Positions 1,247-49,568 of a stretch of 64,000 nt of DNA are shown in pieces. Every line of letters begins with the position of its first letter. Position 1 is the first letter of the stretch. Location of the stretch: positions 1,607,589 to 1,671,588 of the forward strand of contig NZ_QPMJ01000001.1 of the NCBI RefSeq assembly GCF_003369835.1. The letters are read 5' to 3'. The notes beneath the pieces were generated by a model. The model worked only from the letters and a program-made list of their open reading frames with translations. It made no database searches and was not told the origin of the DNA. Source of the stretch: Halorussus rarus (GTDB lineage: Archaea; Halobacteriota; Halobacteria; Halobacteriales; Haladaptataceae). The translations under genes were made by a program, and so were the position numbers.

Positions 1247-3547
1247 TCAGACCGCGGCGTAGACCTCGACGACTGCCGCGCTCGGAACGTCAGTCACTGC
1301 GAACGCACTCGACTGGGTCGCCGAAACGCTCGCCGGCTGGGTCACGGACGCGGGCAGGGCCATGCTGTCGGACTCCTGGGTCTGGTTGGTCTCGACGTTT
1401 ATCGACGAACTCGAACTCTGCTCGTTGCCGTCGCCGTCGGTGTACTGCTCGTCCTCTTGCTCGACCTCAACGTCGGAGCTCTGCTCCTGCTCGTTGTCGT
1501 CGCCGTCCTCGATATCCTGCTCGCTGTTCTGCTCGACCTCGGCGTCCTGTTCGACCTCCTGCTCGTTGTCATCGCCGTCGGTCTCCTGGTCGATCTCCTG
1601 TTCGACTTCGGCGTCCTGCTCGGACTCCTGCTCGTTGTCGTCGCCGTCTTCTATCTCCTGATCGCTCTCCTGCTCGACGTCGCTCTCCTGTTCGGCGTCC
1701 TGCTCGTTGTCGTCGCCGTCAGCTTCCTGTTCGACCTCGTTCTCCTGTTCGATGTCCTGTTCGGCGTCCTGCTCGTTGTCGTCGCCGTCCTCAACTTCCT
1801 GTTCGGCGTCCTGCTCGGCCTCGTTCTCTTGTTCGGCCTCCTGTTCGTTGTCGTCGCCGTCAGCTTCCTGTTCGGCCTCGTTCTCCTGTTCTAGTTCTTG
1901 CTCGAGGTCCTGTTCGTTGTCGTCACCGTCTTCGACTTCTTGCTCGCCCTCTTGCTCGCCTTCGTTCTCCTGCTCGAGTTCCTGCTCGTTGTCGTCACCC
2001 TCGGCTTCCTGCTCGCCCTCGTTCTCCTGTTCGGCTTCCTGCTCGCCCTCCTGCTCGTTGTCGTCGCCGTCTTCTATCTCCTGCTCGAGTTCTTGTTCGA
2101 GTTCGTTCTCCTGTTCGCCCTCCTGCTCGTTGTCGTCACCGTCTTCGACCTCCTGCTCGAACTCGTTCTCCTGCTCGCCCTCCTGTTCGCCTTCCTGCTC
2201 GTTGAAGATGCCGTCCTCGACTTCCTGTTCGATCTCCTGTTCTCCTTCGTTCTCCTGTTCGCCTTCCTGCTCGTTGTCGTCACCGTCTTCGACTTCCTGT
2301 TCGACTTCGTTCTCCTGCTCGAGGTCCTGCTCGCCCTCCTGCTCGTTGTCGTCGGCCAGGTCCTCGAGCTCTTGCTCTATCTCCTGTTCGCCCTCGTTCT
2401 CCTGCTCGGCGTCCTGCTCGTTGTCGTCACCGTCTTCGACTTCCTGTTCGGCCTCGTTCTCCTGTTCGAGGTCCTGCTCGGCTTCCTGTTCGTTGTCGAA
2501 CGCGTCGTCAGCTTCCTGCTCGACCTCTTGCTCGCCCTCGTTCTCCTGTTCGGCGTCCTGTTCGTTGTCGTCACCGTCTTCGACTTCCTGTTCGGCCTCG
2601 TTCTCCTGTTCGAGGTCCTGTTCCGCTTCCTGCTGGTCGCCGATACTTAGCCGGATGTCTTGTTCGACGTCCTGCTCGCCCTCGTTTTCCTGCTCGACCT
2701 CCTGCTCGTTGTCGTCACCGTCTTCGACCTCCTGCTCGAACTCGTTCTCCTGCTCGCCCTCCTGTTCGGACTCCTGCTCGTTGTCGAAGCCGTCTTCGAT
2801 TTCCTGCTCGCTGTCCTGTTCGAGTTCGTTCTCCTGCTCGCCCTCCTGCTCGTTGTCGTCACCGTCTTCGACCTCCTGCTCGCCCTGGTTCTCGAGCTCG
2901 CCCTCCTGTTCGGCGTCCTGCTCGTTGCCTTCGGAGTCGACCAGGTCACTTTCGACCTCCTGCTCGTTCTCTTGTTCGAGTTCGTTCTCCTGCTCGTTCT
3001 CCTGCTCGTTGTCGTCGCCGTCCTCGACCTCCTGCTCGTTCTCGTTCTCCAGTTCGCCTTCTTGGTCGGCGTACTGCTCGTTGTCGTCGCCCTCGGCTTC
3101 CTGCTCGTTCTCCTGCTCGAGTTCGTCCTCCTGTTCGGCCTCCTGCTCGTTGTCGTCGCCGTCTTCGACCTCCTGCTCGTTCTCCTGCTCGATGTCGCCC
3201 TCCTGGTCAACGTCTTGGACGTTGTCGTCACCGTCAGCGTCCTGCTCGTTCTCCATCTCAACTTCGCTCTCCTGCTCTACCTCCTGGCAGTTATCGTCGC
3301 CATCATCGATATCCTGTTCCGCGTCGGAACTCTCAAAGACGATCCGTTTCAGCCGTTGGGTGTTGTCGTCACCGTCAGCGTCCTGCTCGTTCTCCTGTTC
3401 GAGCTCGAGCTCATCCTCTTCCTCTTGACAGTTCTCATCCTGCGCGACAGCCGCTCCTGTCATCCCGATACTCATCACACTGACTACCATCAAGATGGTC
3501 AGTACGAGGGCCGTTGCGCGCCCGATTCTTGTCTCGTTTGCTCTCAT
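1247..3547 (-). CDS. Large secreted Glu/Gln/Asp-rich tandem-repeat protein, candidate beta-solenoid
   Basis: 766-residue protein. Residues 1-36 form a Sec signal peptide: a basic start (R-I-G-R), a hydrophobic core and a probable cut at A-V-A/Q. The mature part is about 28 units of 22-28 residues, each with a turn of the form D-G-D-D-N-E-Q between stretches in which Glu alternates with Q, V, L, A or N. Variant turns carry a hydrophobic residue (G-F-D-N, G-I-F-N, A-F-D-N). Alternation with Gly-x-x-Asn turns resembles curlin-type beta-strand repeats (inference). Only two cysteines are seen, both in N-C-Q near the N terminus. The C-terminal 60 residues are Ser/Thr/Val/Ala-rich, with no PGF-CTERM or membrane anchor. 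The ATG at 3547 is preferred over the upstream frame because it opens the signal peptide. Confidence 0.85.
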   Translation of the reverse strand: MRANETRIGRATALVLTILMVVSVMSIGMTGAAVAQDENCQEEEDELELEQENEQDADGDDNTQRLKRIVFESSDAEQDIDDGDDNCQEVEQESEVEMENEQDADGDDNVQDVDQEGDIEQENEQEVEDGDDNEQEAEQEDELEQENEQEAEGDDNEQYADQEGELENENEQEVEDGDDNEQENEQENELEQENEQEVESDLVDSEGNEQDAEQEGELENQGEQEVEDGDDNEQEGEQENELEQDSEQEIEDGFDNEQESEQEGEQENEFEQEVEDGDDNEQEVEQENEGEQDVEQDIRLSIGDQQEAEQDLEQENEAEQEVEDGDDNEQDAEQENEGEQEVEQEADDAFDNEQEAEQDLEQENEAEQEVEDGDDNEQDAEQENEGEQEIEQELEDLADDNEQEGEQDLEQENEVEQEVEDGDDNEQEGEQENEGEQEIEQEVEDGIFNEQEGEQEGEQENEFEQEVEDGDDNEQEGEQENELEQELEQEIEDGDDNEQEGEQEAEQENEGEQEAEGDDNEQELEQENEGEQEGEQEVEDGDDNEQDLEQELEQENEAEQEADGDDNEQEAEQENEAEQDAEQEVEDGDDNEQDAEQDIEQENEVEQEADGDDNEQDAEQESDVEQESDQEIEDGDDNEQESEQDAEVEQEIDQETDGDDNEQEVEQDAEVEQNSEQDIEDGDDNEQEQSSDVEVEQEDEQYTDGDGNEQSSSSSINVETNQTQESDSMALPASVTQPASVSATQSSAFAVTDVPSAAVVEVYAAV

Positions 3548-4346: not shown

Positions 4347-5489
4347 TCACTCCAGCAGTTCGTTCGCGATGGTGTTCCGCAGCACCTCGCTGGTACCCTC
4401 GTAGATCTCGTTGAGTTTCGAGTCGCGGTAGTACCGCTCGGCGGGGAAGTCCTTGGTGTAGCCGTACCCGCCGTGGATCTGGATGCCCTCGTTGGCGACC
4501 TCGCGGGAGATCTCCGACGCGTAGAGTTTGGCCTGGGCGGCCTGCTTGATGAAGTCCTCGCCGCGCATCTTGCGGTCGGCAGCGCGGTGCATCAGCATCT
4601 TGGCGGCCTGGACCTTGGTGTCCATGTCCGCGAGCTTGTGCTGGATGGTCTGGAACTCCGAGATGGACTGGTCGAACTGCTCGCGGTCCTGGGAGTACTC
4701 CAGGGCGTCTTCGAGCGCGGCGCGCGCGATGCCGATGGACCGGGCCGCGATGGTGATGCGCCCGCCGTTCAGGGTCTTGAGCGCGTGGACGAACCCGCGG
4801 CCCTCCTCGCCGAGCAGGCGGTCCTCGGGGATACGCATCTCGTCGAAACGGAGCTCGGCGGTCGGACAGCCCTTGTCGCCGAGCTTGTCCTCGGTGCCCT
4901 CGACGTGGAAGCCGTCGTCCTCCTCGGGCCGGACGACGAGCGACGAGATGCCCTTGTTACCCGCGTCGGGGTCGGTCTTGGCGAACAGCGTGACGGTGTC
5001 GGCGACCGAGCCGTTCGAGATCCAGAGCTTCCCGCCGTTGATCACGTACTCGTCGCCGTCCTTCTCGGCCGTCGTGTCCATCGCGGGGACGTCCGATCCG
5101 GCGCCCGCCTCCGAGAGCGCGAACGCGCCGATGTCCTCGCCGCGGTTGAGCGGCGTGAGGTACTCCTGCTTCTGCTCCTCGTCGCCGAAGGCGTAGAGCA
5201 TGTTGCCCGCGAGGCTGGTGTGGGCCGCCACGACCGTCCCCAGGCCGCCCGAGCCCCGGGAGATCTCCTCCAGCCCGATGGCGTAGGAGTGGTAGTCGAG
5301 GCCCGCCCCGCCGTACTCCTCGGGGAACGGCATCCCCATCAGGCCGAGGTCGGCCATCTGGTCGACGAGGTCCGCGGGGAACTCGTCGGTCTCGTCGATC
5401 TCGTCGGCCCGGGGCTCGATCTCCTCGTCGGCGAACTCCGAGACCATGTCGCGTATCTGCTTCTGTTCGGCGGAGAGGCTGAAGTCCAT
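4347..5489 (-). CDS. Acyl-CoA dehydrogenase
   Basis: 380-residue FAD enzyme that oxidises an acyl-CoA to the trans-2-enoyl-CoA, the first step of beta-oxidation, passing electrons to ETF. The family order is seen: N-terminal helical domain (M-D-F-S-L-S-A-E-Q), middle beta domain with A-L-S-E-A-G-A-G-S-D and W-I-S-N-G, and a C-terminal four-helix domain with Q-I-H-G-G-Y-G-Y and the catalytic-Glu motif Y-E-G-T-S-E. Length is normal. An in-frame TTG lies two codons upstream, but the ATG at 5489 fits the family. A palindrome abuts the start codon (see 5491-5503), shared with the paralogue at 22235. Substrate chain length cannot be told. Confidence 0.93.
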   Translation of the reverse strand: MDFSLSAEQKQIRDMVSEFADEEIEPRADEIDETDEFPADLVDQMADLGLMGMPFPEEYGGAGLDYHSYAIGLEEISRGSGGLGTVVAAHTSLAGNMLYAFGDEEQKQEYLTPLNRGEDIGAFALSEAGAGSDVPAMDTTAEKDGDEYVINGGKLWISNGSVADTVTLFAKTDPDAGNKGISSLVVRPEEDDGFHVEGTEDKLGDKGCPTAELRFDEMRIPEDRLLGEEGRGFVHALKTLNGGRITIAARSIGIARAALEDALEYSQDREQFDQSISEFQTIQHKLADMDTKVQAAKMLMHRAADRKMRGEDFIKQAAQAKLYASEISREVANEGIQIHGGYGYTKDFPAERYYRDSKLNEIYEGTSEVLRNTIANELLE

Positions 5490-5490
5490 G

Positions 5491-5503
5491 CGCAAAACTT
5501 GCG
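5491..5503. promoter_or_regulatory. Candidate operator CGCAA-N3-TTGCG at the acyl-CoA dehydrogenase start
   Basis: Perfect 5-bp arms CGCAA and TTGCG around AAC, one nucleotide upstream of the ATG at 5489. The same motif at identical spacing precedes the second acyl-CoA dehydrogenase (23379-23391), and a one-mismatch copy lies just upstream of the hydroxyacyl-CoA dehydrogenase (8018-8030). Its position over the probable transcription start suggests a repressor site. Confidence 0.6.
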
Positions 5504-5994: not shown

Positions 5995-7074
5995 ATGGAT
6001 ACGGAGTCGCTCACCGAACGCCCGGACGCCGACATGGACTGGTGTTTCGAGGCCGTCCAGGGCGTGTCGAGAACGTTCGCCATCACCATCGACGTGCTCG
6101 AGCAGCCGATGGCGTCGTACATCTGCGTCGGCTACCTGCTCTGTCGCGTCGCCGATACGGTCGAGGACGCCGGTCACGTCCCGCCGGAGACCCAGTCCCG
6201 TCTCCTGACCCTCTACGACCGGGCGCTCGACCCGGACGACGAGACGAGCATCGAGGAGTTCCGGGCGGCCGTCGAGCCCCACCTGCCCGCGAACGCCGAC
6301 GAGGTCGACGCGGAGGAGGTCGCCCGCGAGGACTGGGACGTGGTCGCAGAGTCGCCCCGCGTCGTCGCCACCTTCCGGTCGCTGGGCGAGGACGCCCAGT
6401 CGGCAATCTACCCGCCGGTCAGCGAGCTGGTCAGGGGAATGGCCGAGTTCGTCGAGCGCTACGAGGACGACGGCGGCCTCCGCATCGGCACCATCGACGA
6501 GCTCGAGGAGTACTGCTGGTACGCAGCGGGCACCGTCGGCGAGCTCATCACCAATCTGGTCGCCCAGGACGTCGACGACCGGCGCGCCGAGGTGCTCCGG
6601 GCAAACGCCCGCGGGTTCGCGCTGCTGCTCCAGCTCGTCAACGTCGCCAAGGACGTCTCCGACGACTTCCGCGAGGAGAACAACGTCTACCTGCCCGCGA
6701 CGTGGCTCCGCGAGCACGGGGTGAGCCCGTCGAACGTCACCGACCCGGAGAACCGGACCGCGGTCGCCGGCGTCATCCGGCGGGTCACCCGCCACGCCCG
6801 CGGCTACATGGACGACGCCCAGCGCTACCTCGAGGTGCTCCCCGAATCGAAAGGGAACACCCTCGAAGCGTGGGCCATCCCGTACCTGCTGGCGGTCGGC
6901 ACCAGCCGCGAACTGCTCGAGCGCCCCGAGGACGTGGTGGAGGACGGCGGCGTGAAGGTCTCCCGCACGGAGGTGATGGGACTCATCCAGCTGTTCAAGT
7001 CGGGCAACGTCGAGCGCGAGAAGATCGGCGAGCTCCGGGCCCGGATGGAGGACGAGCAGTTCACGCCGTCGTGA
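5995..7074 (+). CDS. Phytoene/squalene synthase family protein, probably squalene synthase
   Basis: 359-residue prenyl-transferring enzyme that would condense two farnesyl diphosphates head to head to squalene. The first Asp-rich motif is D54-T-V-E-D58, within Y-L-L-C-R-V-A-D-T-V-E-D. The second is K-D-V-S-D-D-F-R-E-E-N-N-V-Y-L-P. The opening V-S-R-T-F-A-I-T-I and the length are closer to squalene synthases than to the roughly 320-residue CrtB phytoene synthases of haloarchaea. Squalene is a neutral membrane lipid of these cells. The frame extends 38 codons upstream of the ATG at 5995; that part is not conserved-looking. It could alternatively be a second phytoene synthase. Confidence 0.85.
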   Translation: MDTESLTERPDADMDWCFEAVQGVSRTFAITIDVLEQPMASYICVGYLLCRVADTVEDAGHVPPETQSRLLTLYDRALDPDDETSIEEFRAAVEPHLPANADEVDAEEVAREDWDVVAESPRVVATFRSLGEDAQSAIYPPVSELVRGMAEFVERYEDDGGLRIGTIDELEEYCWYAAGTVGELITNLVAQDVDDRRAEVLRANARGFALLLQLVNVAKDVSDDFREENNVYLPATWLREHGVSPSNVTDPENRTAVAGVIRRVTRHARGYMDDAQRYLEVLPESKGNTLEAWAIPYLLAVGTSRELLERPEDVVEDGGVKVSRTEVMGLIQLFKSGNVEREKIGELRARMEDEQFTPS

Positions 7075-7149
7075 CCGGCGAGAGACTGACCCCGACGCCG
7101 TTCGTTGCCGGCTGCGGCGACACCAGTAACCTGTCCGACACTTCTCGAT

Positions 7150-8013
7150 TCAGTCGTACTCGTAGAAGCCCTCGCCCGTCTTCTTGCCCAGATCACCCGC
7201 GTCGACCTTGCGCTTGAGCAGGTACGCCGGCTTGTAGCGGTCGCCCAGCTCCTCGTGGAGCGTCTCGCTGGCGTCCAGGCAGATGTCCAGCCCGATGTGG
7301 TCGGCGAGTTCGAGCGGACCCATCGGGACGTTCGTGCCGAGTTTCATCCCCTTGTCGATGTCCTCCTTGGAGGCGACGCCCTCGTCGTATGCCCGGACGC
7401 CCTCGTTGAGCCACGGCATCAGGATGCGGTTGGTGACGAAGCCGGGCTTGTCGTCGGACTCCCAGGTCTCCTTGCCGAGGTCCTCGGCGAGCGCGTGGGC
7501 GAACTCCACGACCTCCTCGTCGGTCTTCTCGCCGACGACCACCTCGACGCCCGTCATCACCGGCACGGGGTTCATGAAGTGGAGGCCGACGACCCGGTCC
7601 TCGCGCTCGGTGGCGGCCGCGATGGTCGTTATCGAGAGCGTAGAGGTGTTGGTCGCCAGCACGACGTCCTCGGGAATCGCCTCGTCGAGGTCCGCGAAGA
7701 TGTCCTGTTTGATGTCCATGTCCTCGACCGCGGCCTCGACCACCACGTCGCAGTCCGCGAGGTCCGCGAGGTCCGTCGTCCCCGCGATGCGCTCGACCGT
7801 CGCCTCGGCCTCGTCGTCGGTCAGTTTGTCCTTCGAGACGAACCGGTCGAGGCTGTCCTCGATGGAGTCGAAGCCGTTCTGGACGAACTCCTCCTTCACG
7901 TCGCGCATCACGACGTCGTAACCCTGCTGGGCGGCGACCTGCGCGATGCCGCTGCCCATCGTGCCTGCGCCGACGACGCCGATACGCTGGATGCTGTCGA
8001 GCGTCCGAACCAT
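7150..8013 (-). CDS. hbd: 3-hydroxyacyl-CoA dehydrogenase
   Basis: 287-residue NAD-dependent enzyme of beta-oxidation, converting 3-hydroxyacyl-CoA to 3-ketoacyl-CoA. It has a Rossmann G-A-G-T-M-G-S-G-I-A-Q at residues 13-23. The catalytic-His block is L-A-T-N-T-S-T-L-S-I then G-L-H-F-M-N-P-V-P. The C-terminal dimer domain has P-G-F-V-T-N-R-I-L-M-P and G-P-L-E-L-A-D. Length is that of the stand-alone bacterial type. The open frame runs 74 codons further upstream, but the ATG at 8013 begins right before the nucleotide-binding strand. A CGCAA-N3-TTGCG-like palindrome lies immediately upstream, linking it to the two acyl-CoA dehydrogenases. Confidence 0.95.
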   Translation of the reverse strand: MVRTLDSIQRIGVVGAGTMGSGIAQVAAQQGYDVVMRDVKEEFVQNGFDSIEDSLDRFVSKDKLTDDEAEATVERIAGTTDLADLADCDVVVEAAVEDMDIKQDIFADLDEAIPEDVVLATNTSTLSITTIAAATEREDRVVGLHFMNPVPVMTGVEVVVGEKTDEEVVEFAHALAEDLGKETWESDDKPGFVTNRILMPWLNEGVRAYDEGVASKEDIDKGMKLGTNVPMGPLELADHIGLDICLDASETLHEELGDRYKPAYLLKRKVDAGDLGKKTGEGFYEYD

Positions 8014-8017
8014 GCCC

Positions 8018-8030
8018 GGCAATTCTTGCG
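8018..8030. promoter_or_regulatory. Candidate operator (one-mismatch copy) upstream of hbd
   Basis: GGCAA-TTC-TTGCG, differing at one outer base from the CGCAA-N3-TTGCG sites at the two acyl-CoA dehydrogenases. It begins four nucleotides upstream of the start codon at 8013, so like those sites it sits over the probable transcription start. Confidence 0.5.
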
Positions 8031-8173
8031 CCCGTGGCGTAAGCCTACCGAAGCCGGGACGCCACTCGACCGCGGTCCGGCGTCGCGGCCGCCGCACCGG
8101 CGATCTTCTTTCGCTCCGGGCAAAACATTCAAGCCCCGTCAGTGAGACTCCGAAATTAACTCGGTGACGCCCC

Positions 8174-8824
8174 GTGAGCCAAAACGATGCCCCCGACGAC
8201 GAACCGACCGACGGCGTGACTGCGCTGACAGACATCCACCTCGTCGGTCCCGCGACCGCGGAGGTGCTGGCCGACGCCGACTTCGACGCGACCGGCCTGC
8301 CGGAGAAGGAGGTGTCCTACGAGATGCTCGTCGGTGCGGGCGTCAACGCCGGCGTCGCCACGCGCCTACGCAAGGAGCACTCGCTTCACTGGTCGTTCGG
8401 CGGTAGTGACGAGGACGACGACTCGCTCGCGCAGCGGTCGGAGAAGGTCCGCGGACTCCAGGACGACGAGCGCGCGTGGGTCGCCGCCAGCAGCGGCGAC
8501 TGGGAGTCAGCGGACCCGGACGGTGCGGACGCGACCGGCGGCGACTGGTCGCCGACCGGCGAGTCGTCCGCGCCGATGGAGGCCTCGACCGACGGCAGCG
8601 GGGCCGCCGAGGCCGCCGAGGCCGCGTGGCGCGAGCGGAGTCGTCCCGACCCGGTGACAGACGTCCCGGGCGTCGACGAACGGACCGCCGAAACTCTGGC
8701 CAACGGCGGCGTGACCTCGGTCCGGAGCCTCGCCACCGCCGATCCCGAGCACCTCGCCGACTCGCTCGGCCTCGACCGCGAGCGGGTCGCCGATTGGCGC
8801 GACGCCGCCCGCGAGCTGGCCTGA
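8174..8824 (+). CDS. Helix-hairpin-helix domain protein
   Basis: 216-residue acidic haloarchaeal protein. The N-terminal part (about 15-70) and the C-terminal part (about 160-214) each carry a helix-hairpin-helix-like pattern: L-V-G-P-A-T-A-E-V-L-A-D-A-D and V-P-G-V-D-E-R-T-A-E-T-L-A-N-G-G-V. They are joined by a low-complexity Asp/Ser/Ala/Glu linker (about 95-155). HhH pairs bind DNA non-specifically through the backbone, so a DNA-associated role is likely; none is demonstrated. The start is GTG at 8174. A T-rich stretch follows the stop and may end transcription. Confidence 0.75.
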   Translation: MSQNDAPDDEPTDGVTALTDIHLVGPATAEVLADADFDATGLPEKEVSYEMLVGAGVNAGVATRLRKEHSLHWSFGGSDEDDDSLAQRSEKVRGLQDDERAWVAASSGDWESADPDGADATGGDWSPTGESSAPMEASTDGSGAAEAAEAAWRERSRPDPVTDVPGVDERTAETLANGGVTSVRSLATADPEHLADSLGLDRERVADWRDAARELA

Positions 8825-8933
8825 TTTTTACTATTTCGGTAGTAAGTACTCTTCAGGCGAACCGGGTTCACGTCGCGTCTCGCGCACCTTCGCGCCCGTA
8901 AGAGCGACTTCGTCTCGCCTGCGCGACCAGTAA

Positions 8934-8943
8934 GACTCTTATG
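8934..8943 (+). promoter_or_regulatory. TATA box of the fba-fbp operon
   Basis: A TATA-like ACTCTTATGC lies 25-34 nt before the ATG at 8968. This fits a leaderless transcript and supports that start over the in-frame ATG at 8941, which overlaps the box itself. Confidence 0.5.
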
Positions 8944-8967
8944 CGATGTTACCGGACTTCGAAACGA

Positions 8968-9762
8968 ATGATACCACTCGAAGACTCCCCGGTAACGCGC
9001 GACGGCAAGGCGCTCATCCTCGCTTACGACCACGGGCTCGAGCACGGCCCCTCCGCTGACTTCAGTTCGGTGCCGGAGACGCTGGACCCCGAGCGGATCT
9101 TCGACATCGCGACCCACGACGCGGTGACGTCGCTGGCGGTCCAGAAGGGGGTCGCCGAGCGGTACTACCCCTCCTACGACGACCAGGTCAACCTGCTGGC
9201 GAAGCTCAACGGCACGAGCAACCTCTGGACGGGCGAGCCCTACTCGCCCAAGAACTGGACGGTCGACTACGCCGCCGAGCTGGGCGCCGACGCGGTGGGC
9301 TACACGGTCTACTCGGGGTCGAACCACGAGACCGAGATGTACGAGGACTTCCGCGAGATCCAGGAAGCGGCCCACTCCGAGCACGACCTGCCGGTCGTCA
9401 TGTGGTCGTACCCCCGCGGCCAGGGCCTGAAGAACGACACCAAGGAGAGCGTCATCGCCTACGCCACCCGCATCGCGCTGGAGATCGGCGCCGACATGGC
9501 GAAGGTCAAGTACCCCGGCTCCCGGGAGTCGATGGAGTGGGCGGTCCGGTCCGCGGGCGACGTGCCGGTGGTGATGTCGGGCGGGTCGAAGATCAGCGAC
9601 TACGAGTTCCTCTCGAGCGTCGAGGCGGTCATGGACGCCGGCGGGTCGGGCCTCGCGGTCGGCCGCAACGTCTGGCAGCGCGACGAGCCCGAGCGCATCC
9701 TCGACTCGCTCGAGCAGGTCATCTTCGAGGGAGCCACCGCCGACGAAGCGCTCGACGAATGA
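8968..9762 (+). CDS. Class I fructose-bisphosphate aldolase, archaeal DhnA type
   Basis: 264-residue TIM-barrel aldolase making or cleaving fructose 1,6-bisphosphate. The DhnA-type opening A-L-I-L-A-Y-D-H-G-L-E-H-G-P is at 15-28. The Schiff-base region M-A-K-V-K-Y-P-G is at about 177-184 (K179 or K181). The phosphate-binding loop is V-V-M-S-G-G-S-K. The stop overlaps the start of the fructose-bisphosphatase gene (ATGA), so the two are translationally coupled and act in sequence in gluconeogenesis. The related 2-amino-3,7-dideoxy-heptulosonate synthase (AroA') belongs to the same superfamily, but the fbp coupling favours the sugar aldolase. Confidence 0.9.
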   Translation: MIPLEDSPVTRDGKALILAYDHGLEHGPSADFSSVPETLDPERIFDIATHDAVTSLAVQKGVAERYYPSYDDQVNLLAKLNGTSNLWTGEPYSPKNWTVDYAAELGADAVGYTVYSGSNHETEMYEDFREIQEAAHSEHDLPVVMWSYPRGQGLKNDTKESVIAYATRIALEIGADMAKVKYPGSRESMEWAVRSAGDVPVVMSGGSKISDYEFLSSVEAVMDAGGSGLAVGRNVWQRDEPERILDSLEQVIFEGATADEALDE

Positions 9763-10811
9763 GCGGGCCGGACCCGGACGTCGCGACGGACACCGAACTC
9801 GACGCCGACGGACCCATCGTCGACCGCGACGACCCCGTCACGGCCGCGGTCGAGACCGTCGCCCTCTCTGCCCCCGAGATACGGGGCGGGCTGGTCGGTC
9901 GCCGGCGGAAGGCCGAGGGCGAGAACCCCAGCGGGGAGGAGCAACTGGCGGCCGACGTGTGGGCCGACGAACTGCTCGAGGCCCGTCTGACCGCCATCGA
10001 CGGCATCGCCCAGTACGCCAGCGAGGAGCGCGAGGGCATCGTCGAGGCCGGCGATGGTGACCCGAGCGAAGCCGGCGCGAGCTACGCCGTCACCGTCGAC
10101 CCCCTCGACGGCTCGTCGAACCTCAAGCCGAACAACACGATGGGGACCATCCTCGGGGTCTACGACGCCGAGCTTCCCGCGAAGGGCGCGGAACTCGTCG
10201 CCGCAGCGTACGTCCTCTACGGGCCCATCACGACGATGATGGTCGCGCGCGACGGCGAGGCGACCGAGTACGTGATAGATAGCGAGGCGCGACGCGCCTC
10301 GGACAGTCGAGTAGCGAGGGACGCGGAACGTCCCTCGGACCGTGCGAGCGGCGATAGCGGCGAGCAGACGGCGGAGCCGCGAGACGGTGACCGCAGCTCC
10401 CACGCCGAACGCAAGGCTGTCCGCGAGGACGTGACCCTGCCCGACGAGCCCACGGTCTACGGGTTCGGCGGGCGCGTACCCGACTGGACCGACCGGTTCG
10501 CCGCCTACGCCGACGAGGTGGAGGACGAGCTCAAGCTCCGGTACGGCGGCGCGATGATCGGCGACGTCAACCAGGTGATGACCTACGGGGGAATCTTCGC
10601 CTATCCCGAACTCGAATCGCGGCCCGAGGGCAAGCTCCGGCTCCAGTTCGAGGGGTACCCCATCGGCTACCTCGTGGAGACGGCGGGCGGGCGCTCCTCG
10701 AACGGGGAGGCGTCGCTGCTCGACGTGGAACCCGACGAGCTCCACCAGCGGACGCCGGTGTACGTTGGTAACCGGGACCTCATCGAGCGGCTGGAATCGC
10801 AGTTCGCGTAA
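9759..10811 (+). CDS. fbp: Class I fructose-1,6-bisphosphatase carrying an in-frame palindromic insertion
   Basis: 350-residue phosphatase converting fructose 1,6-bisphosphate to fructose 6-phosphate. The metal-binding D-P-L-D-G-S-S-N motif is near residue 115, and the substrate region has Y-G-G-A-M-I-G-D-V-N-Q and E-G-K-L-R-L-Q-F-E. The start ATG overlaps the aldolase stop by four bases. Residues about 174-222 are an Arg/Ser/Ala/Asp/Glu-rich block unlike the rest of the enzyme, encoded by a tract with two perfect palindromes (10284-10336). Without it the protein would be about 300 residues, nearer the usual size of class I enzymes. The insertion lies between V-A-R-D-G-E-A-T-E-Y-V-I and T-L-P-D-E-P-T-V-Y, probably a surface loop, so activity is probably kept. 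Confidence 0.92.
   Translation: MSGPDPDVATDTELDADGPIVDRDDPVTAAVETVALSAPEIRGGLVGRRRKAEGENPSGEEQLAADVWADELLEARLTAIDGIAQYASEEREGIVEAGDGDPSEAGASYAVTVDPLDGSSNLKPNNTMGTILGVYDAELPAKGAELVAAAYVLYGPITTMMVARDGEATEYVIDSEARRASDSRVARDAERPSDRASGDSGEQTAEPRDGDRSSHAERKAVREDVTLPDEPTVYGFGGRVPDWTDRFAAYADEVEDELKLRYGGAMIGDVNQVMTYGGIFAYPELESRPEGKLRLQFEGYPIGYLVETAGGRSSNGEASLLDVEPDELHQRTPVYVGNRDLIERLESQFA
10284..10336. repeat. Pair of palindromic units inside fbp
   Basis: Unit 1 (10284-10300) is GAGGCGCG-A-CGCGCCTC. Unit 2 (10316-10336) has arms GAGGGACG and CGTCCCTC around CGGAA. Both begin with GAGG and are followed by GGAC after the closing CCTC, so they look like two copies of one repeat design. They sit in frame within the coding sequence. 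Confidence 0.8.
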
Positions 10812-10854
10812 GCGGCCCTTTTCACATTCGTCTTTCGCGTGTTCCGAGTCGGCG

Positions 10855-11952
10855 TCAGATTCCCGCGTTGTCGACATCGACCCGGCGGCCCGTCTCGGCC
10901 GACTCGTAGATCGCCTCGACCGCCTCCATGTCGGCGACGCTGTCGCGGCCGTCGGGCTCCGGGTCGGTGTCGGTCAGCACGCAGTGGGCGAAGTAGTCGA
11001 ACTCCTCGGCCACCTCGTTGACGTACGGGCCGGTGTACGCCGCGCACTCGTCGCCGACCCCGATTTCGAGCGTGGGATGAATCTCGGAGTTGAACGCCGG
11101 GTTCATCTCCACCTGCCCATCGGTGCCGACGATGCGGAGGCGGTCGTCGGCTTGGGCGTCGTAGCTCGCGGTGCAGGAGGCGGTCGCGCCGCCGGGGAAC
11201 TCCAGCTGGAAGGCGACGTGCTCGTCCAGTCCCTCGAACTGGTCGTCCGGAGCGCTGGTGGTCGCCCGGGCCCCGACGGGGTCCGCGTCGAGCAGGAACC
11301 GGACCGCGTTGAGGGGGTAGACCCCCACGTCCATCAGTGCGCCGCCGCCGGCCAGTTCGGGGTCGAGCCGCCACTGGTCGGGACCGCCCTGCTCGAGGAT
11401 GTGGCCCGTGAACCAGCCGTGGAACGCGACCGGGTCGCCCAGGACGCCGTCCCGGACCATCTCCCGGAGGCGGCGGTGGGCCGGCTCGACCTGCGGCCGG
11501 TAAGCGACCATCAGGGTCACGTCCGCCTCCTCGCAGACCCGGACCATCTCGCGGGCGCGGTCGGCCGTGGTCTCGATTGGCTTCTCGCAGAGGACGTGCT
11601 TGCCGTGGTCGGCCGCGGTCCGGGCGTAGTCGAGGTGGAGCGCGTTCGGCCCCGCGACGTAGACGGCGTCGAAGGCGTCGACTCCCTCGCCCGCCTCGAA
11701 CTCGTCGTAGGTGAGCACGGCCTCGACGCCGTACTCGTCGGCGACCGATTCGGCCTTCCCGGACGACCCGCTGATCAGCGCCGAGACCTCGCAGAACTGT
11801 GTGCGGTCGGTCGCGGCGTGACCTTCCAGCGCCGGCAGGACGTGGTCGCGGGCGAACCCGCCGAGGCCGAGCAGCGCGACCCGGACGGTCCCCTCCTCGG
11901 CGGTCTGCCAGTCGCGGGTCGCGAAGCGCTCGGTGTACGAATCGAGGTTCAT
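10855..11952 (-). CDS. Gfo/Idh/MocA family oxidoreductase, probably D-xylose 1-dehydrogenase-like
   Basis: 365-residue NAD(P)-dependent sugar dehydrogenase. The Rossmann domain has V-A-L-L-G-L-G-G-F-A-R-D-H-V near residues 25-38, followed by the E-K-P-I block characteristic of the family (H-V-L-C-E-K-P-I-E-T-T). The C-terminal domain has G-G-G-A-L-M-D-V-G-V-Y-P-L-N. The N-terminal extension (Y-T-E-R-F-A-T-R-D-W-Q) and the length match what is known of haloarchaeal NADP-dependent D-xylose dehydrogenases (Gfo6/Xdh), which make xylonolactone; substrate assignment is by resemblance only. The longer upstream frame is the antisense of the permease region and is discarded. Confidence 0.85.
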   Translation of the reverse strand: MNLDSYTERFATRDWQTAEEGTVRVALLGLGGFARDHVLPALEGHAATDRTQFCEVSALISGSSGKAESVADEYGVEAVLTYDEFEAGEGVDAFDAVYVAGPNALHLDYARTAADHGKHVLCEKPIETTADRAREMVRVCEEADVTLMVAYRPQVEPAHRRLREMVRDGVLGDPVAFHGWFTGHILEQGGPDQWRLDPELAGGGALMDVGVYPLNAVRFLLDADPVGARATTSAPDDQFEGLDEHVAFQLEFPGGATASCTASYDAQADDRLRIVGTDGQVEMNPAFNSEIHPTLEIGVGDECAAYTGPYVNEVAEEFDYFAHCVLTDTDPEPDGRDSVADMEAVEAIYESAETGRRVDVDNAGI

Positions 11953-12111
11953 GGCAGTTGGGTCGCCCCGGACGCCGGAAAGCCTACCGGCGGGATGAGG
12001 CCGAGCGCCCGCGTCGGTGCGGGGTCGCCAGCGGAGCGATGGCCGAGCGACCGAACCCCCGTCGGACCTCGGCCGGGCGTTTCTTCCCGACCCACCGAGA
12101 AGAGGCGCCTC

Positions 12112-12987
12112 GTGGTAGGACTCGGCATCTGGTACGCGGCGGTCGCGGCGCTGGTCTGGGGCGGCTACCTCTTCGGACTCAAGCGGTACGTCTCGGGGTA
12201 CCCGCCCGCGGTGGTCATCGTCGGCGCGAACGCGGCCGGCGTCGCGTGGTACTTCCCGGTCGCGGCGCTCTGGCCGGCGGAGGGGCCGCCAGTCGGCGAG
12301 GTCACGTTCGCGGGGGTCGCGCTCGTCGGCTTCGTGCTGGTCGCCAGCGCCGCGGCGTATCTCGCGCTGCTCTACGCGCTGAACGCCGGCGACGTCTCGT
12401 ACGTCGCCCCGCTGGGCAAACTGGTCCCGGCGTTCACCCTGCCGCTGGAGGTCCTGCTGGTCGGCGAGCATCTGGCGCCGTCGCAGCTCGTCGGCGTCGG
12501 GTTCGCCACGCTGGCGGTCTACCTCGCCAACTACCAGTCCACCGGGCTACTGGCGCCGATCCGCCGGGCTGCGACTCACCGGCCGGCCCAGCTCGCGCTC
12601 GGGAGCGCCGCCCTCTACGGCGCGGTCGACGTCGGCACTCGCGTCGTGCTCCAGGGCGTCGGGGTGCGCTCGGACGTCTGGGTGCTGGTCTACACCGGCG
12701 GGGTCGCGGTCGTGCTCCTCCCGCTGGCGGCCCGCCAGTGGTCCGGCGATGTGGCCGCCGCGCTGCCGACGTTCGCGGCGCTCGGCGCCGTCGTCGCGGT
12801 CGGGACCCACCTCATGACCCAGGCGTTCGCGGTCCTGCCGGCGAGCATCGTCTCGCCCATCCTCAACACCCAGGCGATCGTCGCGGTCGTGCTCGGCGGT
12901 CTACTGCTCGGCGAGGACCGGTTCGGGCTCCGGCTGGTCGCCGGCGCGGTCGCCGTCGTCGGCATCTCGCTCATCGCGCTCGGGTGA
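12112..12987 (+). CDS. EamA-type (DMT superfamily) permease
   Basis: 291-residue integral membrane protein with about ten hydrophobic helices in two homologous halves (first half about 1-140, second about 160-290), the layout of EamA transporters. It starts V-G-L-G-I-W-Y-A-A-V-A-A-L-V-W-G-G at a GTG; the same open frame extends far upstream but only as antisense of the dehydrogenase gene. The substrate is unknown; family members move amino acids, sugars or metabolites. It diverges from the sugar dehydrogenase with about 160 nt between them. Confidence 0.85.
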   Translation: MVGLGIWYAAVAALVWGGYLFGLKRYVSGYPPAVVIVGANAAGVAWYFPVAALWPAEGPPVGEVTFAGVALVGFVLVASAAAYLALLYALNAGDVSYVAPLGKLVPAFTLPLEVLLVGEHLAPSQLVGVGFATLAVYLANYQSTGLLAPIRRAATHRPAQLALGSAALYGAVDVGTRVVLQGVGVRSDVWVLVYTGGVAVVLLPLAARQWSGDVAAALPTFAALGAVVAVGTHLMTQAFAVLPASIVSPILNTQAIVAVVLGGLLLGEDRFGLRLVAGAVAVVGISLIALG

Positions 12988-13090
12988 GAGGGGCGGTCGG
13001 GTCACGGTCCGGACCGCGGCGGAGTCCGCCGGTGGCAATATTCGCACCTAAATGGAAAACGGTTTGAAATTGCTCGCCGGACGCTTGTAC

Positions 13091-14902
13091 ATGAAAGTCC
13101 GCGTCAGCGACGGTGCGACCGACGAGGAGGCCTCCGCCATCGCGGAGGCGCTCGCCCGGCACGTCCGCGACGAGGTCGAAGTGTTCGTGGGCGACGCCGA
13201 CGCCCCGGCCGTGGTCAGAGAGGCGCCGGTCGCCGAGGCAGGAGCAGCCGGAGCGGGGTCTCCCGGGGCAGCGACCGGCGACGGTGGGTCGTCGGCCGCG
13301 CCTGGGACCTCGGCCGGCGACGACCTCGGACCGACCGACCGCGAGCGGGCGCTCTGGGACGAGATCGAGGACATCGAACTCGGCGGGCCCGAGAAGTACA
13401 AACAGCGCCTCGACGAGCAGGGCAAGCTGTTCGTCCGCGACCGGCTCGACCTCTGGTTCGGAGAGGACGGGATGCTGTTCGAGGACGGGAAGTTCGCCAA
13501 CTTCGACGCCTGGCACCCCGACAGCCCCGAGGTCGAGGACAGCGACGACCGGCTCCCGGGCGACGGCCTGCTCACCGGCGCGGCCGAGTTCGAGGGCCGG
13601 GAGCTCCACTTCATGGCCAACGACTTCACCGTCAAGGCCGGGTCGATGGCCCAGAAGGGCGTCGAGAAGTTCCTCCGGATGCAGCAGCGCGCGCTCAAGT
13701 CGGGCAAGCCCGTGCTCTACCTGATGGACTCGTCGGGCGGGCGCATCGACCAGCAGACCGGCTTCTTCGCCAACCGCGAGGGAATCGGGAAGTACTACTA
13801 CAACCACTCGATGCTCTCGGGGCGGGTCCCCCAGATCTGCGTGCTCTACGGCCCCTGCATCGCGGGTGCGGCCTACACGCCCGTCTTCGCCGACTTCACG
13901 GTCATGGTCCGCGACATGTCGGCGATGGCCATCGCCTCGCCGCGGATGGTCGAGATGGTCACCGGCGAGGAGATCGAACTCGAGGAGCTCGGCGGCCCGG
14001 ACGTCCACGCCAAGTACTCCGGCAGCGCGGACCTGGTCGCCGACGACGAGGAGCACGCCCGCGAGCTGGTCGCGGAGCTCGTCGGCTACCTCCCTGACAG
14101 CGCCGACGACGAGCCCCCGAAGCGGGAGGGCAAGCCCCCCGCGAAGTCGCCGGAGGGAATCGATTCCATCGTCCCGCAGGCCCCGAACAAGGGCTACGAC
14201 ATGACCGACGTGATAGACCGCGTGGTCGACGAGGGGTCGTACTTCGAGCTCAAGCCCGAGTACGGGAAGGAGATCATCACCGCGTTCGCCCGCATCGACG
14301 GCCGGCCGGTCGGCATCGTCGCCAACCAGCCCGCCCAGCGCGCCGGCGCCATCTTCCCCGACGCCGCCGAGAAGGCCGCGGAGTTCATCTGGACCTGCGA
14401 CGCCTACGATATTCCTCTACTGTACCTCTGCGACACCCCCGGCTTCATGGCCGGGTCGCAGGTCGAGAAGGACGCCATCCTCGAGAAGGGCAAGAAGTTC
14501 ATCTACGCCACCTCGTCGGCGACCGTGCCGAAGCAGACCGTCGTCGTCCGGAAGGCCTACGGCGCGGGCATCTACGCCATGGGCGGCCCGGCGTACGACC
14601 CCGAGAGCGTCCTCGGACTCCCGTCGGGCGAGATCGCCATCATGGGGCCGGAGGCAGCCATCAACGCGGTGTACGCCCGGAAGCTCTCCGAGATCGACGA
14701 CGAGGAGGAGCGCGCGGCCAAGGAGCGGGAGCTCCGCGAGGAGTACCGCGAGGACATCGACGTCCACCGGATGGCCAGCGAGGTCGTCATCGACGAGATC
14801 GTCCCGCCGAGCACGCTCCGGACCGAACTGGAGAACCGGTTCGCGTTCTACGAGGGCGTCGAGAAGGAATTGCCCGACAAGAAGCACGGCACGATCCTCT
14901 GA
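13091..14902 (+). CDS. pccB: Acyl-CoA (propionyl-CoA) carboxylase carboxyltransferase beta chain with an N-terminal extra domain
   Basis: 603-residue protein. Residues about 90-603 are a full carboxyltransferase with N-half S-S-G-G-R-I-D-Q-Q and G-P-C-I-A-G-A-A-Y, and C-half Q-P-A-Q-R-A-G-A-I-F-P and L-C-D-T-P-G-F-M-A-G-S. It would transfer carboxyl from biotin to propionyl- or acetyl-CoA. Residues 1-40 form a small beta-alpha-beta unit (M-K-V-R-V-S-D-G-A-T-D-E-E-A-S-A-I), followed by an Ala/Gly/Ser linker to about 88. That unit resembles actinobacterial epsilon subunits (inference). The family is usually about 510-520 residues. The biotin carboxylase chain is not in this window. The start at 13091 fits a TATA-like stretch near 13060. 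Confidence 0.9.
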   Translation: MKVRVSDGATDEEASAIAEALARHVRDEVEVFVGDADAPAVVREAPVAEAGAAGAGSPGAATGDGGSSAAPGTSAGDDLGPTDRERALWDEIEDIELGGPEKYKQRLDEQGKLFVRDRLDLWFGEDGMLFEDGKFANFDAWHPDSPEVEDSDDRLPGDGLLTGAAEFEGRELHFMANDFTVKAGSMAQKGVEKFLRMQQRALKSGKPVLYLMDSSGGRIDQQTGFFANREGIGKYYYNHSMLSGRVPQICVLYGPCIAGAAYTPVFADFTVMVRDMSAMAIASPRMVEMVTGEEIELEELGGPDVHAKYSGSADLVADDEEHARELVAELVGYLPDSADDEPPKREGKPPAKSPEGIDSIVPQAPNKGYDMTDVIDRVVDEGSYFELKPEYGKEIITAFARIDGRPVGIVANQPAQRAGAIFPDAAEKAAEFIWTCDAYDIPLLYLCDTPGFMAGSQVEKDAILEKGKKFIYATSSATVPKQTVVVRKAYGAGIYAMGGPAYDPESVLGLPSGEIAIMGPEAAINAVYARKLSEIDDEEERAAKERELREEYREDIDVHRMASEVVIDEIVPPSTLRTELENRFAFYEGVEKELPDKKHGTIL

Positions 14903-22234: not shown

Positions 22235-23377
22235 TCAGAGCCCGAGTTCCCGCCCGACGACGAGGTGCTGGATCTCGCTGGTCCCCTCCCCGATCTCCAT
22301 CAGCTTCGCGTCGCGGAAGAACCGCTGGGGCGCGAAGTCCTCGGTGTAGCCGTAGCCGCCGAGCGTCTGGACCGCGTCCTCGGCGACCTCCCGAGCGGCC
22401 TCGCTGGCGTCGAGCTTCGCGAGGGCGCTCTCGCGGGTGACCGACTCGCTCTGGTCGTACCGCCAGGCCGCGCGGTGGGTCAGCAGGCGGGCTCGCTCGA
22501 CCTTTCGGTCCATCGAGACCACCTTGTTCCTGATGGCGTCGAACTTCGAGATCGGCTGGCCGAACTGCTCGCGTTCCTTGCTGTACTCCTTGGCGGCCTC
22601 GTAGGCGCCCTGGGCCAGCCCGGTCGAGAGCGCCGCGATGGAGATGCGGCCGCCGTCCAGCGTCTTCTTGGTCTGATTCCAGCCCTCGCCCTCCTCGCCG
22701 AGCAGACGGTCCTCGGGAATGCGGACGTCGTCGAGCTGGATTTCACAGGTGGGCGAGGCGTTGAGCCCCATCTTGTCCCAGACGGTCGTGACCTCGAAGC
22801 CGTCGTCCTCCTCGGGGTCGACGATGAACGTCGAGATGCCGTCGTAGCCGGCCTCGGGGTCCGTGACGGCCTTGACGAGGACCGACCCGGCGACGTTGGC
22901 GTTGGTGATGAACTGCTTCGTGCCGTTGAGGACCCATTCGTCGCCGTCCTTCTCCGCCATCGTGTCCATGTCGCTGGCGTCCGACCCGCTGCCGGGCTCG
23001 GTCAGCGCCCACGAGCCGAGGTACTCGCCCTCCGCGAGCGGACGGAGCCACCGCTCTTTCTGCTCTTCGGTGCCGAACAGCTCGATGGGCTTGGAGGCCA
23101 GCGAGACGTGGGCCGCGTAGGAGAGGCCGACCGACCCGGAGACGCGGCCGAGCTCCTCGGTGACGAGCGCGTACATGAGCTGGTCGCCGCCCAGTCCGCC
23201 GTACTCCTCGCCGACCGGGACGCCCATCATGTCGAGGTCGGCGAGCTTCTCGAAGATGTCCTCGGGGAACCGGTGTTCGTCCTCCATCTCCTGGGCGACG
23301 GGCTCGATCTCCTCGTCGCAGAACCGACGCACCTCGTCGCGGATCATCTGGTGCTCGTCGGAGAGTCCGAAATCCAT
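22235..23377 (-). CDS. Acyl-CoA dehydrogenase, second paralogue
   Basis: 380-residue FAD enzyme of beta-oxidation or branched-chain acyl-CoA breakdown. Motifs are W-A-L-T-E-P-G-S-G-S-D, F-I-T-N-A in the middle domain, T-L-G-G-Y-G-Y and I-G-E-G-T-S-E-I-Q with the catalytic-Glu region at the C terminus. It starts M-D-F-G-L-S-D-E-H at the ATG 23377; a TTG two codons upstream is not needed. It shares with the paralogue at 4347 not only fold but the palindrome directly before the start codon, so both are probably under one regulator. Confidence 0.93.
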   Translation of the reverse strand: MDFGLSDEHQMIRDEVRRFCDEEIEPVAQEMEDEHRFPEDIFEKLADLDMMGVPVGEEYGGLGGDQLMYALVTEELGRVSGSVGLSYAAHVSLASKPIELFGTEEQKERWLRPLAEGEYLGSWALTEPGSGSDASDMDTMAEKDGDEWVLNGTKQFITNANVAGSVLVKAVTDPEAGYDGISTFIVDPEEDDGFEVTTVWDKMGLNASPTCEIQLDDVRIPEDRLLGEEGEGWNQTKKTLDGGRISIAALSTGLAQGAYEAAKEYSKEREQFGQPISKFDAIRNKVVSMDRKVERARLLTHRAAWRYDQSESVTRESALAKLDASEAAREVAEDAVQTLGGYGYTEDFAPQRFFRDAKLMEIGEGTSEIQHLVVGRELGL

Positions 23378-23378
23378 G

Positions 23379-23391
23379 CGCAAATTTTGCG
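23379..23391. promoter_or_regulatory. Candidate operator CGCAA-N3-TTGCG at the second acyl-CoA dehydrogenase
   Basis: CGCAA-ATT-TTGCG, extended to a 7-bp arm palindrome GCGCAAA-T-TTTGCGC style on both sides. It begins one nucleotide upstream of the ATG at 23377, the same spacing as the site at 5491-5503. Confidence 0.65.
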
Positions 23392-35361: not shown

Positions 35362-36501
35362 TTAAACGACCTTCATCATCCTCCGTTCGAATCTGCCGAC
35401 CCTGACCTTCCGCCATCCCCGCAGCGAGTCGTCGACTTCGTCGTCGCCGGTGTCGACCCTGAGGACGCCGATACCGTCGAGTTTCGGCTTCGACGCGATT
35501 ATCTCGACCGAGGACCGTCGGACGACTTCCGGGGAGATCTGGTCGTTGCCGCGACCGAAGACGAACCCCTGCCCGCCGATGGGCGACACCACGACGACGT
35601 TCTTCTCGTCCAGGTGGGCCAGAATCTCGTCCTCGGTCGCGTCCTCGACCAGCACCTCGCCACCGTCGGACTCGTCCGACGAGCCTCCGTTCGCTTCGCT
35701 CTCGGAGACGCTTCGCCAAACGTCGACCCCGAGTGGAGACCCCTCGAAACCGAGTTCGTCCTTCACCGCGCCGACCGTGCTGCCCGGCCCGAGGACGTAC
35801 GTCGCGCCTTCGTCGGACCGGATGTCGTCGGCCACCCCGGCCGCCAGGCTCTCGACCGTGCCGCCGCCGACCTGCTTGCTCGACTGGAGGTCCTCGGCGA
35901 CCGGCACCGCGACCACCGCCCTGAGTTCGGCCCGGACCTCGCCCTCCCGGTAGGCGTCCTCGTCGATGTCGTTGACCTCGCGGTCCTCGGTCCGGTCGAA
36001 GTCGGCGGCGACCCGGCCCGCGGCCTCGGGCGTGACCGCGAACACCGCCGAGTAGACCTTCACGCCCGCGGGCACGCCGAGCACCGGAACCTCTGCGCCC
36101 TCTTCGTCGAGCGTCTCGGCCACGTCGACCGCGGTCCCGTCGCCGCCGACGAACAGTATCAGGTCGACGCCTTCGGCGACGAATCGCCTGACCGCCTCGC
36201 GGGTGTCCGCGGCGGTCGTCTCGTCCTCGCGCTCGGGACGACCGACGATGACGGGGTCGAACCCCGCCTCGCGGGCCTCGCGCTCGCCCATCTCCCCGCC
36301 GTAGGTCAGCAGGTCGACGTCGGGAGCGCCGGAGGCGTCGACGCGCTCGCGGAGCGCGCCCAGCGCGTCGACCGCCCGGTCGGGTGCGCGCGGTTCCGCG
36401 CCGCGCTCGCGGGCCGCCTCGACCTTCCCGTCGGTGCCCTTCAGACCGACTCGCCCGCCCATCCCCGCGACGGGGTTGACGACGACGCCGATGGTTCGCA
36501 T
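35362..36501 (-). CDS. ATP-NAD kinase family protein
   Basis: 379-residue protein of the ATP-NAD kinase/AcoX group. It opens M-R-T-I-G-V-V-V-N-P-V-A-G-M-G-G, with the catalytic G-G-D-G-T-A-V-D-V-A and P-A-G-V-K-V-Y-S. The C-terminal half has S-P-I-G-G-Q-G-F-V-F-G-R-G-N. It would phosphorylate NAD or a related substrate. Residues about 265-285 are a Ser/Glu/Gly/Asp loop encoded by a palindromic dispersed element (35674-35709) also found at 49361-49396. The ATG at 36501 precedes the first strand directly and is preferred to an upstream frame start. Confidence 0.87.
   Translation of the reverse strand: MRTIGVVVNPVAGMGGRVGLKGTDGKVEAARERGAEPRAPDRAVDALGALRERVDASGAPDVDLLTYGGEMGEREAREAGFDPVIVGRPEREDETTAADTREAVRRFVAEGVDLILFVGGDGTAVDVAETLDEEGAEVPVLGVPAGVKVYSAVFAVTPEAAGRVAADFDRTEDREVNDIDEDAYREGEVRAELRAVVAVPVAEDLQSSKQVGGGTVESLAAGVADDIRSDEGATYVLGPGSTVGAVKDELGFEGSPLGVDVWRSVSESEANGGSSDESDGGEVLVEDATEDEILAHLDEKNVVVVSPIGGQGFVFGRGNDQISPEVVRRSSVEIIASKPKLDGIGVLRVDTGDDEVDDSLRGWRKVRVGRFERRMMKVV
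35674..35709 (-). repeat. 36-bp palindrome-rich dispersed repeat, copy A (in frame within the NAD kinase gene)
   Basis: On the minus strand it reads GTCTCCGAGAGCGAAGCGAA then CGGAGGCTCGTCGGAC. It matches 32 of 36 bases of the intergenic copy at 49361-49396. It contains a CTCCG...CGGAG inverted repeat, and an adjacent GTCGGAC-TC-GTCCGAC palindrome at 35665-35680. The insertion keeps the frame. Confidence 0.8.
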
Positions 36502-49146: not shown

Positions 49147-49568
49147 ATACCGGAATCTAGACCCGGATTGCCAAACCAATTCACCCGTCCATGGGCGGGC
49201 TTTAAGTATTCCCGCGGGAAAGACCGTGATGGAAATGGGGAGAGAACCCGACCGACTACCGCAGCGCTCGGTCGACCAGACAACCTCGGGCGGGACCGAA
49301 AGGGCCCGGTCGCTCGCGTTTACGTGGTCGTCTCCGGCGGCCCTATTCGCGGCGGGCGGTGTCTCCGCGAGCGGAGCGAGCGGAGGCTCGTCCGACCTGT
49401 GGTCTGACGGTGTGGAGAGCCGCGAATATCCGCCGGAGTCGTTCGAAAATCGGAGATTTTCGTGATGACGAGAGAACTTCGCTCTCTCGAACCACGACCG
49501 CGAGCGACCGGGGGCTTTCTAAACGTTCTTCCCAATGGCTCCACAGCACGATTCGAGGGGGTCAATCG
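49147..49568. other. Intergenic region rich in palindromes
   Basis: 422 nt between the divergent paaA and HTH-10 regulator genes. It holds a 36-bp dispersed repeat (49361-49396) and two perfect inverted repeats: CGAAAATC-GGA-GATTTTCG at 49444-49462 and CGAGAGA-7 nt-TCTCTCG at 49469-49489. No convincing gene is present. Repeats this close to the regulator may act in its control or be mobile mini-elements. Confidence 0.55.
49361..49396 (+). repeat. 36-bp palindrome-rich dispersed repeat, copy B (intergenic)
   Basis: GTCTCCGCGAGCGGAGCGAG then CGGAGGCTCGTCCGAC. It is identical at 32 of 36 positions to the copy lying in frame inside the NAD kinase gene. CTCCG and CGGAG arms form the inverted repeat. 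Confidence 0.8.

Follow-up and report, generated by a model that had tools for sequence, protein, structure and literature searches.

How one palindromic sequence can lie both in frame within a NAD kinase gene and again between genes is the question raised by this locus, for which an earlier note had proposed either a small non-autonomous element or a recurring protein- or RNA-binding site. The window, by which we mean the whole 64-kb stretch of DNA analysed, comes from a Halorussus genome of 4.37 Mb in seven contigs. The resemblance first reported between the two copies holds in direct comparison: positions 35674-35709 (plus strand) and 49361-49396 (minus strand) are identical at 32/36 positions, the second-best place in the window matching at 24/36, and the NAD kinase copy is indeed in frame and the other intergenic. 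The 36 bp originally described are part of a larger unit, which spans 35661-35709 on the minus strand (49 nt) and 49361-49412 on the plus strand (52 nt). A covariance model, R1, built from 16 copies with both window copies among them, scores these two at 71-72 bits, and the third-best hit in the window reaches 18 bits. The gene beside the intergenic copy is presumably paa, a name that we take from the earlier note. The features are as follows, with the basis of each in brackets.

35362..36501, minus strand: host gene, NAD kinase (Pfam PF01513 and PF20143; start codon from the ORF listing)
35661..35709, minus strand: module of two hairpins inside the NAD kinase gene, 49 nt, GTC...GACGGTG (R1 match of 71.3 bits; empty orthologues)
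35662-35709, minus strand: net insertion of 48 nt within the NAD kinase module (orthologue comparison)
35683..35709, minus strand: hairpin 1 of the NAD kinase copy, an 8-position stem with a T.G wobble, tandem GA/GA, two closing pairs and a GAA loop (R1 alignment; pair counts over copies)
35665..35680, minus strand: hairpin 2 of the NAD kinase copy, GTCGGA...TCCGAC (alignment to R1)
49361..49412, plus strand: two-hairpin module, intergenic, beside the presumed paa gene, 52 nt (R1 match of 72 bits)
49298..49519, plus strand: larger structured intergenic repeat of about 222 nt with an outer stem GAAAGGG...GGGGGCTTTC (RNA fold)

In the 377-residue translation of the NAD kinase gene, the insert makes up residues 263-278. 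Most orthologues read GVDVWR-D-GEVL at this place and the window's gene reads GVDVWR-S-VSESEANGGSSDESDG-GEVL, a net gain of 48 nt in frame, with Ser262 standing where most orthologues have Asp. From 80 collected NAD kinase loci, of which 29 are in the structure alignment, 23 orthologues, some picked for their unusual length, were aligned at the site: 19 are empty, three carry unrelated extra residues and one, from H. halobius (L092), has a related but shorter insert at the same point, with hairpin 2 lost. Conservation at the protein level, against which the earlier note had weighed its reading, is thus not seen. The nearest orthologue among those listed is that of H. aquaticus, with 81% identity over the best segment. 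In an AlphaFold2 model of the protein (mean pLDDT 81.5, pTM 0.55), the insert is predicted, at low confidence, to form a loop that joins strands 258-262 and 279-283, with pLDDT under 50 at residues 269-275.

Two hairpins with covarying stems

Alignment of the copies gives, for the consensus strand, GTCTNCGN-GA-GC-GNA-GC-GA-NCGNAGGC-TC-GTCNNN...NNNGAC-GGYG, which forms two successive hairpins: in the first, a T.G wobble lies close to the foot, tandem GA faces GA and the loop has three bases; the second has a variable stem closed by GTC/GAC. Position 8 of the hairpin-1 stem is an A/A mismatch in the NAD kinase copy. The GA/GA arrangement is present in 14/16 coding and 28/36 non-coding copies counted, and the GNA loop in only 10/16 and again 28/36, respectively. 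Single-stranded DNA gains unusual stability from d(GCGNAGC)-type loops and from tandem GA pairs.

The stems covary. In seventeen hand-picked copies, both members of a pair have changed in 37 cells, compared with 12.4 after shuffling and 1-6 with a slid partner; the corresponding figures are 250, 71.6 and 15-31 for 68 copies of the window's own genome and 178, 48.7 and 4-20 for 62 distinct copies from other genomes, the last two alignments having been fitted to R1. The T.G pair is retained in 60/62 rows from other genomes, which indicates one strand as the folded form. The folding energies of single copies, with z-scores of -1.2 to -2.0 on both strands, are not unusual for their composition, and the case for the structure therefore rests on covariation. 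No Rfam family reached its gathering score for the eight loci submitted.

Copies, empty sites and reading frame

The sequence is far from limited to the two copies first noticed: counting copies in the genome and its relatives, as had been suggested, gives at least 65 R1 hits in the own genome at E<=0.01 (78 at E<=1). A degenerate 32-base pattern finds 16 places genome-wide at <=3 mismatches, and the same pattern read backwards finds none. The 18 Halorussus genomes, the own included, have 17-116 hits each, with the highest count in G008; these are lower bounds, with 150 of about 6,000-14,000 first-look candidates scored per genome. A draw of Halobacteria gave hits at E<=1e-4 in 143/194 genomes and 54/65 genera, and a phylum-wide draw of 120 genomes gave hits in 15/19 haloarchaea and 0/101 others. 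Among the latter, 85 unlisted genomes with no match were taken as non-haloarchaeal from the listing order, and the non-haloarchaeal genomes of this draw are probably less GC-rich, so that they control for composition only in part.

Presence and absence at orthologous loci, the comparison called for by the earlier note, gives empty sites in relatives for several hosts besides NAD kinase. We ran a joined query of the flank pairs of eight other hosts, identified by Pfam and NCBIfam searches, against the 18 Halorussus genomes and read the homologous DNA for part of the hits. A SpoVR-like gene (net insert +48) is empty in 7/7 relatives read, an XPB helicase gene (+51) in 5/5, hemD (+51) in 9/9 and the L246 gene (+57), whose protein has no match in Pfam or NCBIfam, in 5/5. 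For a TnpB gene, where the comparison sequences are homologues of unproven orthology, the insert is +48 against six and +51 against one, and 7/7 are empty; an HD-domain gene (+51) is empty in 5/6, with a similar insert in G016. In Kae1 (+48), 14/16 relatives are empty and two have unrelated acidic inserts, 16 of the 17 relatives having been read and G003, with a slightly longer span in the joined query, left out. The Kae1/Bud32 gene of the window's genome (L243) carries two modules; in Kae1 of a different family (L399, in G204), the second of these sites also holds a module. All net inserts at the sites read are 48-57 nt long, every one a multiple of three, and the hosts are functionally unrelated.

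BirA was excluded as a clean empty-site case because some relatives carry modules: among the 13 read, the module is present in L355 and L367, weakly in L358 and partially in L372. The BirA modules of several species share one position, and their stems differ yet pair, which also fits a long-term upkeep of the structure.

The reading frame is biased. R1 matched 68 times in own-genome loci, and 65 copies were analysed after the three weakest (L279 and the second matches in L267 and L263) had been dropped; of these 65, 20 count as genic under a strict GC3 criterion, 12 sense and 8 antisense. Eleven of the 12 sense copies share one frame. The exception by its model start, L278, passes the criterion in a different phase and has a model length of 44 nt; with its Ser-Glu-Ala codons in the usual phase, the model start is probably misplaced. 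Among 51 copies from other genomes (one per locus from 63 matches, without L214 and L215), 15/15 coding copies use the main sense frame, in a set that favours consensus-like copies because it was picked by the highest model score.

The main sense frame of the consensus is VSASEASGGSSDESDG and yields VSASEASGGSSDESDGG-like linkers; the two remaining sense frames and two of the antisense frames are Arg-rich. The antisense frame PSDSSDEPPLASLAE looks tolerable, and no copy was seen using it; a factor beyond peptide selection may therefore set the strand, and peptide selection alone may not account for the whole strand bias. A model length of 3n+1 is found in 17/17 hand-classed coding sense copies vs 25/36 non-coding ones (Fisher p 0.010). 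The 17 comprise 11 strict copies and six added by hand in the same best frame (L236, L246, L253, L262, L264 and the second L243 copy), with L277, L278 and L281 set aside; L278, as counted, contradicts the 17/17. Seven antisense copies in six genes form VEHGS(T/A)SP.SQA.. units, and we take these six genes to be histidine kinases. In L260, L263, L267, L270, L271, L275 and L276, probable histidine kinase genes, the antisense module takes the form of VEHGSTSPRSQARED-like units next to the N-box; L260 has it twice.

Proposed mobility and its alternatives

We suggest, with a probability of about 0.7, that haloarchaea harbour in this module a non-autonomous mobile element, some 48-57 bp long and made of two hairpins, whose insertions are tolerated in frame and whose single-stranded form is probably what is recognised. 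A recurring binding site, the other half of the earlier proposal, is less likely; it is the differences in presence and absence at orthologous sites that favour the mobile element. Against mobility, the searches for Y1 and TnpB linked no transposase to the module, and no movement was seen between near-identical strains in a sample of one genome per species. The mobilising machinery would probably act on a single-stranded form, either ssDNA or RNA, and insertion would take place at short sites like the element's own end/start joint, with no separable target duplication. The sites in relatives do resemble this joint, GAC GGC-GTC (e.g., GGC-GTC in XPB and the L246 gene), and the pyrimidine preceding the element equals the Y of the terminal GGY in 40/46 cases (Fisher p 3e-6), a statistic in which copies within the same larger repeats are non-independent. 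The search for target-site duplications, which the earlier note had also advised, turned up none that could be separated from the element's ends at the sites read. Once inserted into a protein loop, the unit would survive because its length is as a rule divisible by three and it is translated, in the sense frame, into a hydrophilic Ser/Gly/Asp linker; selection would presumably purge insertions in unsuitable frames, leaving the frame bias that we observe.

The kind of element is known. Rickettsia palindromic elements (RPEs), about 150 bp in length (PMC10969869), are described in the passages used here as palindromic and in frame in unrelated housekeeping genes, mostly in non-structured protein segments, and also outside genes (PMC10969869, PMC2996958). 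The present module is likewise palindromic and in frame within unrelated genes, with empty sites and 3n inserts; it differs, the two being compared by description only, in the size of its inserts (48-57 nt), its two small hairpins and its haloarchaeal hosts. PMC2996958 cites in-frame protein-coding palindromes for Rickettsia, Wolbachia and the archaeon Methanocaldococcus jannaschii; such palindromes are thus not new to archaea, and Methanocaldococcus is the only archaeal precedent found. Our literature searches found no description of the module in haloarchaea, and those with motif letters and peptides gave nothing related by title. MITEs share terminal inverted repeats with a transposon and usually have a target duplication; for the module, no separable duplication was found at the sites read, and the transposon search covered Y1 and TnpB.

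The PATEs of Haloquadratum walsbyi are palindromic and transposase-free, make no target duplication and occur as terminal-only forms of 52 bp, according to the relevant passages of PMC3119063. The haloarchaeal, palindromic and transposase-free module, also without target duplication, could similarly be a relic of the ends of an IS605/IS1341-type transposon, moved in trans by some other partner. We regard this origin as unlikely. PATEs are tied to IS605-type ends and no such link was noticed for the module, the two elements having been compared by description; an unsystematic look at the loci showed no transposase gene with a module on each side; the passages on PATEs do not mention in-frame insertion (PMC3119063), unlike what is seen here; and the one PF07282 (TnpB) match of the own genome is itself a host that carries the module in frame (L240/L404).

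Another explanation would be a functional RNA element, with a role in protein binding, processing or stability, that selection maintains in intergenic transcripts and mRNAs and that has spread through recombination, not as selfish DNA. The T.G wobble and the conserved unpaired positions that mark one strand point this way, as do the excess of sense over antisense among the genic copies and the BirA copies that diverge between species and yet pair. Eight of the genic copies are antisense, however, the hosts have unrelated functions, the insert is missing from most relatives and hairpin 2 has been lost from the H. halobius NAD kinase copy; we consider such a role improbable as the source of the pattern.

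A REP/REPIN-type element, whose hairpin is recognised in ssDNA and moved by a RAYT/TnpA-IS200-like Y1 (HUH) transposase, would share with the module the hairpins with conserved mismatches and the lack of a target duplication, and some modules form inverted pairs (L249, L250), as in REPINs. According to the parts of PMC3733652 used here, REP/REPIN sequences, tagged GTAG or CGTC, are multicopy hairpins of 20-40 bp with variable stems, found as dimers and in some cases intragenic, and the CGTC families have 8-9 bp stems, 4-5 base loops and CCA-like tails. The module is similar in being a set of small multicopy hairpins with variable stems and paired forms, some of them intragenic. It differs in its second hairpin and in its stem and loop plan, has no GTAG foot and, in place of an unpaired GTAG/CGTC tag, ends in a paired GTC (5') and GGYG (3'); CGTC does occur in GGCTCGTC, with its GTC paired in hairpin 2. 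The Y1 family (PF01797) has no match in the own genome and in seven others of the 18 Halorussus, the 116-copy G008 among them, and a search around 26 Y1 loci gave a single R1 hit, which scores 28 bits and adjoins a weak Y1 fragment. These results make a Y1-driven origin very improbable. Finally, a chance or convergent origin as low-complexity, acidic Ser/Gly-rich linkers in a GC-rich genome, of the sort that the acidic inserts of G008 and G011 at the second Kae1 site and the unrelated extra residues of three NAD kinase orthologues might suggest, is ruled out by the covariation, the backward-pattern control, the 0/101 non-haloarchaeal genomes and the intergenic copies of the same structure.

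A wider claim, which we put forward only tentatively, is that the module is a class-wide archaeal mobile element, a single-stranded hairpin pair adapted to genes and moved by a non-Y1 enzyme, whose length and coding frame let it supply essential proteins with ready-made flexible linkers, and that mobile DNA would in this way have produced much of the diversity of loops in the proteins of haloarchaea. The copies form a natural insertion set with empty-site controls across the 54 genera, in hosts that include Kae1, NAD kinase, HemD and the XPB helicase, and bring two questions within reach of a test: how hairpins with no visible transposase are moved, and at which rate proteins gain loops from mobile DNA. 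Haloarchaea include tractable members, such as Haloferax.

Larger repeats between genes

Between genes, the module would serve as a building block of larger palindromic repeats. The copy beside the presumed paa gene sits at the tip of the repeat of about 222 nt, and the RNA fold of 49255-49525 has a z-score of -4.69; in the minimum-energy fold of this region the module pairs unlike R1, and the centroid retains hairpin 1 as in R1. Strong flanking arms were found in 3/9 other copies tried (L199, L216, L200), and the arm patterns of this repeat each occur in 9/408 loci.

Some modules lie within another intergenic repeat of about 200 bp, rich in hairpins and with exchangeable inner hairpins, that starts CGGCGCGCGCTGGC and ends GTGACGGCAGTAGCTAGCT (L012:1450-1672 and 45 BLAST places in the own genome). 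The end has 58 own-genome places at <=3 mismatches. In a class-wide draw of 97 genomes, it gave 49 own-genome places, one single-mismatch place in 3/96 others, no more than the backward control gives, and none in G009, the sole other Halorussus of that draw. With its end nearly confined to the own genome, this repeat was rejected as the class-wide unit. Starts of the same type adjoin modules in other Halorussus (L206, L210).

A different intergenic repeat, with the plan CCTTTT(G/A)C(T/C)GC-module-GGCG-hairpin-GCAAAA or similar, is seen at L247, L249, L251, L258 and L265 and at times contains a second, inverted module. Elsewhere in the window, positions 1418-3439 are taken up by coding-type repeats of about 69-72 bp in a long tandem array, and the regions 4379-5503 and 22267-23391, which lie 17,888 bp apart and are 71-73% identical in pieces, are probably paralogous genes.
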